Shown here one piece after another: positions 50,367-52,994 of a stretch of DNA of 64,000 nt. Under the pieces are notes generated by a model, which made no database searches, was not told the origin of the DNA, and saw only the letters and a list, made by a program, of their open reading frames with translations. Made by a program: the position numbers and the translations under genes. The stretch spans positions 2,451,581 through 2,515,580 of the forward strand of contig NZ_CP063169.1 of NCBI RefSeq assembly GCF_014960965.1, in the 5' to 3' direction. The stretch's first letter is position 1. Each line of letters begins with the position of its first letter. This DNA comes from Ruania alkalisoli. Lineage in GTDB: Bacteria; Actinomycetota; Actinomycetes; Actinomycetales; Beutenbergiaceae.

Positions 50367-52859
50367 TCAGGCCGGGACGATGTTGACGAGCTTGGGTGCG
50401 CGCACGATCACCTTGCGCACCTCGGCGCCGTCCAAGGCGCGCTGCACGCCAGGGTCGGCAAGCGCGGCGGCCTCCAGGTCTGCCTCGGAGATGTCCGGGG
50501 AGACCTCCAACCGCCCGCGCACTTTGCCCTTGACCTGGACCACGCACGTGACGACATCCTCCACGAGCAGCGACTCGTCCACCTCGGGCCACCCGGCGCG
50601 CGCCACGGTCGGGGTGTGGCCCAGCCGCTCCCACATGTCCTCGGCGGTGTACGGAGCCACCAGCGAGAGCAGGATGGCCACGGCCTCCACGGCTTCCCGC
50701 ACGGCCGGATCGGCCCCGCCGCAACCGGAGTCGATGGCCTTACGGGTGGCGTTGACCAGTTCCATCGTGCGAGCCACGACCACGTTGAACCGGTGCGCCT
50801 CGATCAGGGAGGCCGCCTCATGCAGGGTCCTGTGCGTCACCTTCCGCAGAGCGGAATCCCCCTGATCTGCCGAGATCCCGACGGCGGAGGTCACGTCTCC
50901 CGCCAGGCGCCACGCCCGCTGCAGGAACCGTAGCGACCCGGCCGGGGACATGTCCGCCCAATCGATGTCGTCCTCCGGCGGGCCGGCGAACACCAGCGTC
51001 AGGCGTACCGCGTCGACGCCGAATTCCGCCAGCTGCTCCCCCAGGCTCACGCCGTTGCCCAGGGATTTGCTCATCTTCTTGCCCTCGTTGATCACCACGC
51101 CCTGGTTCAGCTGCGCGGCGAAGGGCTCGCGCACCTCCAGCAGGCCCATATCGGCCAGCACCTTGGTGAAGAACCGGGCATACAGCAGGTGCAGCACCGC
51201 GTGCTCGACCCCACCCACGTAGATGTCTGCAGGCATCCAGGCATTGGTCAGTTCGGGATCGAACGCCTGGGTGTCCTCATTCGGTGAGCAGTACCGCAGG
51301 AAGTACCAGGACGAGTCGACGAAGGTGTCCATGGTGTCGGTGTCCCGCTTCGCGGCAGCGCCGCAGCGCGGGCAGTCGACGTTCACCCAGTCGGTGGCCG
51401 TCGCCAGCGGGGAGACGCCCTTCGGCTTGAGGTCGGCACCACGCATGTCCGGCAGCGTCACTGGGAGCTGGTCCTCCGGCACCGGAACGGCACCGCACGA
51501 CTCACAGTGGATGATCGGGATCGGGCAGCCCCAGTAGCGTTGCCGGCTGAGCAGCCAGTCGCGCAGCCGGAAGTTCACGGCGCGCGTGCCAGTGCCCTCG
51601 GCCTCCAGCCCATCGACGATCGTGGCGATCCCGGCCTTCTTGTCGGTCAGCCCGTCCAGCACTCCGGAGCTGACGTAGGTGCCGTCACCGGTGGTGGCCA
51701 CGCCGGAGGACTCCGGGTTCTCCTCACCGGTGTCGATCACCCGGCGCACCGGCAGTCCCATGGCGCGGGCGAAGTCGAGGTCACGCTGGTCGTGAGCAGG
51801 CACCGCCATGATTGCCCCGGTGCCATAGTCGGCCAGCACGTAGTCGGAAGCCCACACCGGCACCCGCTCCCCGCTGACTGGGTTCGTCGCGGTCACGCCC
51901 AGGTCCACACCGGTCTTGGGCCGCTCGGTGGACATGCGGTCGATGTCGGAGGCTTTGCGGGTCTGCGCCAGGTACGCCTCGAAGGCCTCACGGCGCTCGG
52001 GAGCGACGATATCGGCGGCCAGCGCAGCGTCGGCGGCGACAACCATGAAGGTGGCGCCGTAGAGAGTGTCAGGGCGGGTCGTGTAGACCGTCACCACCCG
52101 GTCCGAGCCGTCGGCCAGGTGCAGCGTGAAGTCGACGTGGGCGCCCTCGGAGCGGCCGATCCAGTTCCGCTGTGCGGTGACCACGCGATCCGGCCAGGTC
52201 GATGCCAGACCATCGAGGTCGTCGAGCAGCTCCTGGGCGTAGTCGGTGATCTTGAAGTACCACTGGTTCAGCTCACGCTTGGTCACCTCGGCACCGCACC
52301 GCTCGCACCGCCCGTCCACGACCTGTTCGTTGGCCAGGACGGTCTGGTCGTTCGGGCACCAGTTCACCGGAGAGTACTTCTGATACGCCAGCCCACGCTC
52401 GGCGAACTTCAGAAACAGCCACTGCGTCCACCGGTAGTACTCCGGGTCGGAGGTGTGCAGCCGTCGGGACCAGTCGAAACTGATGCCGAACTTCTTGAAC
52501 GAGGCCGCCTGGGTGTCGATATTGCCGTAGGTGTAGGTGGCTGGGTGCTCGTCATTGCGGATCGCGGCATTCTCGGCCGGCAGACCGAAGGAGTCCCATC
52601 CCATCGGGTTCATCACCTCGAACCCGCGCAGCCACCAGTACCGGGCGATGACGTCGTGCAGGGCCGTCACCTCGGCGTGCCCCATGTGCAGGTCCCCGCT
52701 CGGGTACGGGAACATCGTGAGGGCGTACCGCTTCTCCTTCCCGCCGGTGCGCACCGCCTCGTCGTCGGCGCGGAAGGGCTGGAGCTCTTCCCACACCGGC
52801 AACCACTTCGCCTCCATGGCGTGTGCGTCGTAGGTGGTCTCGATCTGCTCGGTACTCAT
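50367..52859 (-). CDS. leuS: Leucine-tRNA ligase
   Basis: 830 residues, class I synthetase. [14 protein letters not shown] carries the HIGH-type motif near residue 50, [11 protein letters not shown] the KMSKS motif near 600, and an editing (CP1) domain lies between. GAGGCGA and GGGAGAC precede the ATG at 52859. A 12-residue leader ORF with three Leu codons and an intrinsic terminator lie in its 5' region, indicating attenuation by the level of charged tRNA-Leu. Confidence 0.98.
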
Positions 52860-52900
52860 TCGCCTCGTCTCCCGGGTGAGTCCTGCCCACTGCATCGGCA

Positions 52901-52926
52901 CAAAAAAGCCCCTCTCACGGAGGGGC
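52901..52926 (-). terminator. Attenuator terminator in the leuS leader
   Basis: Minus strand: GCCCCTC-CGTGA-GAGGGGC followed by six T and a G, a textbook intrinsic terminator. It lies between the leader ORF stop (52944) and the leuS ATG (52859) and faces leuS; the T-run is on this strand only. It has no other upstream gene to terminate. Confidence 0.88.
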
Positions 52927-52927
52927 G

Positions 52928-52956
52928 GCCGCGACGGTGTGATCTACCGACGCGGC
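52928..52956 (-). promoter_or_regulatory. Leader hairpin of the leuS attenuator
   Basis: GCCGCGTCGG (52947-52956) pairs with CCGTCGCGGC (52928-52937) around a 9-base loop, one T-T mismatch. The 5' arm lies in the last leader codons, so a moving ribosome would open it; it ends one base before the terminator stem. The alternative antiterminator pairing is not obvious to me. Confidence 0.6.
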
Positions 52957-52982
52957 TCGATAAGGAGCAGGACCTGCTGCAT
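52944..52982 (-). CDS. leuS leader peptide with three consecutive Leu codons
   Basis: A 12-residue ORF, MQQVLLLIEPRR, with CTG-CTC-CTT as codons 5-7. A TACGAT -10 box ends 6 bases before its ATG and there is no Shine-Dalgarno, so the RNA should begin at the ATG. The stop codon lies 18 bases before the terminator hairpin. The same layout precedes leuA at 4930-4980. Predicted attenuators of this kind before leuS have been reported for some Streptomyces. Confidence 0.78.
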   Translation of the reverse strand: MQQVLLLIEPRR

Positions 52983-52988
52983 ATGCCC

Positions 52989-52994
52989 ATCGTA
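52989..52994 (-). promoter_or_regulatory. -10 element of the leuS leader transcript
   Basis: TACGAT on the minus strand, a perfect TANNNT, 6 bases before the leader ATG; no clear -35. Confidence 0.55.

Follow-up and report, generated by a model that had tools for sequence, protein, structure and literature searches.

Does leucine control the gene for its own tRNA ligase at this locus? The question arises in a window of 64,000 nt of Ruania alkalisoli DNA (the whole stretch analysed), where a leader open reading frame begins 123 nt 5' of the leuS start on the minus strand; all features of the window described below lie on that strand. On sequence evidence, we put the probability that this leader is a leucine-responsive transcription attenuator of leuS at about 0.8, and it very probably raises leuS expression when leucine is short. 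The leader itself is real, well conserved and of an already known kind; the point of interest is its missing antiterminator.

Anatomy of the leuS leader

The leuS gene (50367..52859, ATG at 52859) encodes a leucine--tRNA ligase of 830 aa, which scores 935 bits against TIGR00396 (leuS_bact; cut-off 548.4). The leader frame (52944..52982) consists of 12 codons and a TAG stop (ATG CAG CAG GTC CTG CTC CTT ATC GAG CCG CGT CGG TAG; peptide MQQVLLLIEPRR*) and contains the putative regulatory leucine codons CTG-CTC-CTT (52962..52970), the last of which is rare (in 45 GC3-selected ORFs from the window, CTT accounts for 2.9% of the codons for Leu). A -10-like hexamer, TACGAT (52989..52994), lies 6 nt (GGGCAT) 5' of the leader ATG, and transcription is predicted to start at 52982, giving a leaderless transcript. 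It is the hexamer alone that points to this start site, because the promoter scan gave no sigma-70-like promoter in the leader region by its criteria and no -35-like match is present.

The last codons of the leader frame form the 5' arm of a hairpin, hairpin A (GCCGCG-T-CGGT, a 7-nt loop and ACCG-T-CGCGGC; 52928..52956), which holds the stop codon in its loop, covaries across the family and is the proposed antiterminator. After a spacing of 1 nt follows an intrinsic terminator (52902..52926), found by the terminator scan and backed by covariation, which sits between the leader frame and leuS and has a 7-bp stem with a 5-nt loop (GCCCCTC-CGTGA-GAGGGGC, 52926-52908) and a T6 run (TTTTTT, 52907-52902). 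The terminator scan of 901 bases gave one site, compared with a shuffled mean of 0.2. An earlier note on this DNA had read TACGAT, six bases, a 12-codon frame with CTG-CTC-CTT, a hairpin made from the last codons and a 7-bp stem with T6 before leuS, and we found this reading exact to the base.

Throughout the window, the arrangement of TAnnnT, 6-7 nt, ATG or GTG and a short ORF with at least three consecutive Leu codons occurs twice, both times on the minus strand, before leuS and before leuA. This class of Leu-run ORF behind a -10-like hexamer was absent from 100 dinucleotide-preserving shuffles of the window, and the same class with a terminator added occurs once in the window vs 0 in 100 shuffles.

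T-boxes are frequent before synthetase genes in other phyla, which speaks for one here. However, Rfam gave no match at the gathering score in the window, nor at E ≤1 in six loci including the window leader (L002), so that no Rfam family covers the leuS leader, and a T-box or other known riboswitch upstream of leuS is barely conceivable.

Conservation and range of the leader

A scan of the DNA preceding 110 leuS-type loci (80 named records and 30 that the family search had given) found leaders with at least two adjacent Leu codons at 57, or 54 after three matches (L079, L080 and L087) were set aside as unrelated to the leuS leader. These leaders occur in Nocardioides, Marmoricola, Propionibacteriaceae, Arthrobacter, Streptosporangiaceae, Actinomadura and others. 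The scan found none at the other 53 loci, which include Microbacteriaceae rows, Nocardia, Nocardiopsis, Thermobifida, Kocuria and several freshwater actinobacteria; the covariance model R1, described below, matched two of these 53 (L018 and L047).

Forty-four of the 54 leaders were aligned with MAFFT (alignment A1), and RNAalifold predicted both helices from these 44 rows without prior structure. Since the terminator of the ELLxxPR-type rows was misplaced by one column in A1, only 29 of these rows went into R1, and the model later recovered the 15 left out. In the alignment of the 29 rows (A2), 93.7% of helix cells are paired, compared with 40.9-52.7% in slid controls, and both sides have changed in 46 cells vs 14.1 in shuffled ones. 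With 96 distinct rows (A3), 96.2% of cells are paired (37.8-47.5% when slid), and both sides have changed in 13 of 17 pairs, in 166 cells vs a shuffled mean of 41.1, in an alignment that is fitted to the model and leans its way. At E 0.01, R1 had no match in 3 of 100 loci (L012, L013 and L050).

Among 108 distinct leaders, the spacer between hexamer and start codon is 6-7 nt in 107 (in a search limited to 4-9 nt with a bonus for 6-7), the last Leu codon is CTT in 93, and the distance from that codon to hairpin A is 6-8 nt in 96. The stop codon lies before hairpin A in 19 leaders, in its 5' arm in 72 and after it in 17; the hairpin is retained although the stop moves, as with a TAG 5' of the hairpin or a TGA in its 5' arm. 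The leader frame, both helices and their position before leuS are thus kept and the stems covary, which is what the earlier note had proposed to look for upstream of leuS.

R1 has one strong match in the window's own genome (E 8.6e-19; the next has E = 0.66). Across the class, 91 of 148 genomes have matches at E ≤0.01 and 61 have strong ones at E ≤4e-8, a cut-off picked after viewing the list, at the point where other genes begin. Downstream of these 61 strong places, tblastn against leuS, cimA and ilvB found leuS in 60 and the contig end in one (L133). At some of them leuS is of a longer type; leuS_bact was the best NCBIfam family in each of the three checked, with L016 above the cut-off and two fragments below it. 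In the sample of the phylum, 12 of 149 genomes match R1 at E ≤1e-5, eight inside the class and four outside, the latter before leuS (two) and before leuA-type genes (two).

The weaker matches of R1 lead to other genes of branched-chain amino acid (BCAA) metabolism. By our own count in the class sample there are 78 such matches at E ≤0.01, and downstream of the 29 examined we found cimA (16), ilvB (9), leuS (1), a leuA-like gene (1) and none of these (2; L159 and L165). At least two Ile codons are present in 13 of the 16 cimA leaders by script, and Ile codons are present in the remaining three by eye; all nine ilvB leaders have Leu/Val codons, with or without Ile. The leuA-like gene (L216) is leuA by TIGR00973, above the cut-off, and its leader is MSQNLLLT. 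The window's own genome has a cimA leader with Ile codons (MTPTSALIIA, L208) and an ilvB leader with Val/Leu codons (MFTDSLVVVLTGRARAAV, L210), each followed by a hairpin and a terminator. Among the papers listed by a literature search, none was recognised as describing a cimA leader.

This agreement between codons and gene (Ile for cimA; Ile, Leu and Val for ilvB; Leu for leuS and leuA) is what argues most strongly that amino acids are sensed by this layout, as the sequences suggest. Hence, with one layout tying leuS, cimA, ilvB and leuA together, leader codons become usable as evidence of how a gene is tuned. A constitutive promoter-proximal terminator that sets a basal level, the Leu codons being incidental, would fit those members of the family that lack a good T-run (L014 and L017). 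Against it stand codons that track the gene's amino acid across all four genes, the bias toward CTT at the last Leu codon and the keeping of the leader in distant orders, and we consider it very improbable.

At L159, a 112-aa ORF that matches neither leuS, cimA, ilvB nor leuA follows a leader MFTPRIII*, which has a hairpin and a terminator.

How the leader may act

With transcription inferred to start at the leader ATG, ample charged leucyl-tRNA would let the ribosome reach the stop codon, cover and melt hairpin A and so allow the terminator to close, turning leuS off. With too little charged leucyl-tRNA, the ribosome would stall at the first or second Leu codon with its front edge just 5' of hairpin A, and the hairpin would stand. 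Placed 1 nt from the base of the terminator, the standing hairpin would hinder closing of the stem in the RNA exit channel by position, not by base competition, and this would permit readthrough into leuS. Terminator stems close at their base deep inside the exit channel, and the gap of 0-1 nt suggests that a hairpin without slack cannot pass through it. Of these steps, we hold the action of the flush hairpin only tentatively, at somewhat less than even odds.

Folding bears on these steps. In the window leader, the terminator has P ≥0.998 without a ribosome and with one at any Leu codon, the Ile codon or the stop, and hairpin A forms only without a ribosome or with one on the first two Leu codons. 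A script whose terminator search was confined to gaps of -2 to +7 located both hairpin A and the terminator in 103 of the 108 leaders (left out: L002, L017, L054, L066 and L099). For these 103, the median terminator P is 1.000 in each of five ribosome states, and P falls below 0.5 in 4 leaders without a ribosome, in 2, 1 and 3 with one at the first, penultimate and last Leu codon, respectively, and in 6 with one at the stop. Hairpin A has P >0.5 in 95, 95, 73, 1 and 0 leaders in the same states. These patterns follow in part from modelling the ribosome by masking bases, with 12 nt assumed ahead of the A site. Hence, equilibrium folding alone gives no switch, because the terminator forms in every ribosome state, and hairpin A is the sole element that varies with ribosome position. 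The lack of a switch at equilibrium counts against the proposed mechanism, as do the melting of hairpin A by a ribosome already at the last Leu codon (the hairpin is kept in 1 of 103) and the presence of the leader, by the scan, at only 54 of 110 leuS-type loci.

The earlier note had seen in this leader the full anatomy of classical attenuation. On one point this did not hold: the hairpin of the last codons has no base in common with the terminator, and we found no other pairing by which the terminator could be opened. Folding, permutation and covariation gave no sign, in the window leader or the family, of an antiterminator with bases that also belong to the terminator. Hence, the classical mutually exclusive pair is absent, and the last mechanistic step would differ from the classical one. 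Provided that leucine acts on this leader in the way its sister leaders respond to their amino acids, the terminator must be opposed by hairpin A, because no comparable pairing was found. Taken together, the earlier interpretation is partly supported, with conservation, precedent and the new order upheld and the classical anatomy not.

A base-sharing antiterminator may instead have been missed, of the kind that models of Corynebacterium ilvB propose (at a GCC boundary, or between the loop of the first stem and the 3' shoulder of the terminator). An overlap of 1-2 nt between hairpin A and terminator, present in 7 of 103 leaders, would allow for this; the gap is 0-1 nt in 87 and larger in nine, so that overlap is absent in 96, and it is 1 nt in the window leader. 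In 13 segment-pairing tests of 100 permutations each, both known helices were matched by 0 of 100 permutations, and a weak native excess appeared for pairing of the leader with the 3' arm of the terminator (4 of 100 as strong), which favours such an antiterminator, and with the 3' arm of hairpin A (5 of 100). However, the segment from the ATG to the hairpin A loop pairs with the 5' arm of the terminator at -5.3 kcal/mol natively vs -5.6 when permuted, compared with -13.9 for the arm's own 3' partner, and 63 of 100 permutations were as strong as pairing of the hairpin A loop with the 3' arm. In six leaders that loop has 4-6 nt, too small for loop pairing. Among the top 45 column pairs by covariation, 11 belong to the two helices, and just three isolated ones link the terminator to upstream columns. 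We therefore judge a missed classical antiterminator to be improbable.

Two further pairings were discarded. The GGCT that ends the terminator could pair with AGCC 5' of hairpin A, but by eye this breaks down where the terminator ends GGGGT, and a 9-bp helix past the T-run in the window sequence (GCGTCGGTA/TGCCGATGC) is possible only after readthrough and is absent, by eye, in L005.

A different possibility is that the stalled ribosome itself blocks the terminator sterically, brought near RNA polymerase by a spacer that hairpin A loops out, with hairpin A acting as spacer or pause signal. The fixed distances from the last Leu codon to hairpin A (6-8 nt in 96 of 108) and from hairpin A to the terminator (0-1 nt in 87 of 103) would suit such a block, but a hairpin acting by its flush position accommodates the same spacings, and we regard direct blocking by the ribosome as unlikely, if less so than a missed classical pairing.

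Returning to hindrance by the flush hairpin, it is conceivable, with the odds against it, that actinobacterial BCAA genes (leuS, leuA, cimA and ilvB) share two-hairpin attenuators in which a flush, non-overlapping hairpin blocks termination by position alone, with the stalled ribosome controlling nothing but the presence of that hairpin. If true, this would be antitermination without competing base pairs and, to our knowledge, the smallest attenuator layout. The missing antiterminator thus poses a testable question: is a hairpin that lies flush with a terminator, but has no base in common with it, able to prevent termination?

Relation to known attenuators and origin of leuS

Enteric trp, leu and his attenuators are not leaderless and sense codons by a stalled ribosome, with exclusive 1:2, 2:3 and 3:4 pairs. 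The logic of the stalled ribosome is alike in the leuS leader, but such exclusive pairs were not found there.

The earlier note named Streptomyces as the precedent, and leuS attenuators have indeed been predicted in S. avermitilis and S. coelicolor, with one hairpin called the antiterminator (Seliverstov et al. 2005, PMC1262725). In S. lividans, leuL2 (peptide MRAVRLLLSEPR) is reported to be leaderless before leuS (PMC8079986). The window leader resembles these in its gene, its Leu-run peptide (MRAVRLLLSEPR vs MQQVLLLIEPRR), its predicted leaderless layout and its hairpin and terminator, and differs in coming from another order and in a shorter spacer between the parts. R1, built without Streptomyces rows, finds exactly MRAVRLLLSEPR*, the LeuL2 peptide of S. 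lividans, in eight loci of one genus. Hence, judged by sequence, the window leader belongs to the Streptomyces leuS attenuator type, now in another order, which widens the range of that attenuator considerably and supplies it with a covariation-backed structure and, in R1, a calibrated model. Apart from the Streptomyces ones, no leuS attenuators were recognised in the literature search, whose scope was literature outside subscription papers.

The ilvBNC attenuator of C. glutamicum has been tested by mutation, and loss of the leader start codon is reported to cut expression by 80%. A two-hairpin switch predicts a rise instead, and this counts against our model. Corynebacterium ilvBNC and ilvB-II (PMC11857589 and PMC10272879) share with the window leader BCAA codons, two stem-loops and adjoining bases of the antiterminator (proposed here) and terminator, and their transcripts start 1 nt from the start codon of the leader, which is close to the start predicted for the window leader. 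The models there include an additional, third hairpin and an overlap of 3 nt (GCC), in contrast to two hairpins and a 1-nt gap here. Neither that type of 3-nt boundary overlap nor pairing of the first loop with the 3' arm of the terminator was found in the window leader or its family. The ilvB1 attenuator of Mycobacterium tuberculosis has been tested with reporters, and it (PMC13236596) likewise has a short ORF with regulatory codons, early termination and a terminator, but gene and codons differ and mutually exclusive structures are proposed by its authors.

The second Leu-run leader of the window, MRISVSLLLRCRGEAH* (4980-4930), follows TACTGT by 6 nt, is of the leaderless type and precedes leuA (4845-3118). 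Its peptide is similar to LeuL1 of S. lividans (MRFGLLLLSCRGEGL), which belongs to the LEU element; the scan gave no terminator and Rfam no match for it.

The window's genome belongs to the same order as genome G025, which is 82% identical over 2.9 kb to Arthrobacter bambusae, and this bears out the earlier note's suggestion of a leader outside Streptomyces in a different actinobacterial order. In a midpoint-rooted leuS tree of 50 rows (38 of the 80 named loci used), leuS of this genome and of four congeners is nested within a clade of Nocardioidaceae (a fork of 14 rows with support 100/100). Since leuS groups with Nocardioidaceae though the genome belongs to the order of Arthrobacter, leuS was probably transferred horizontally together with its leader, which is the simplest reading of the tree.

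Some family members carry more than one leuS. In three congeners (L010, L012 and L013), a leader ending CTG-CTA (ELLTG[PS]R), without a normal terminator, precedes a diverged leuS that is kept alongside a second leuS without such a leader (L027, L029 and L030). Tandem leuS genes of two types stand behind a single leader in G012 (L009 and L026), and the two types lie at separate places in other family members.
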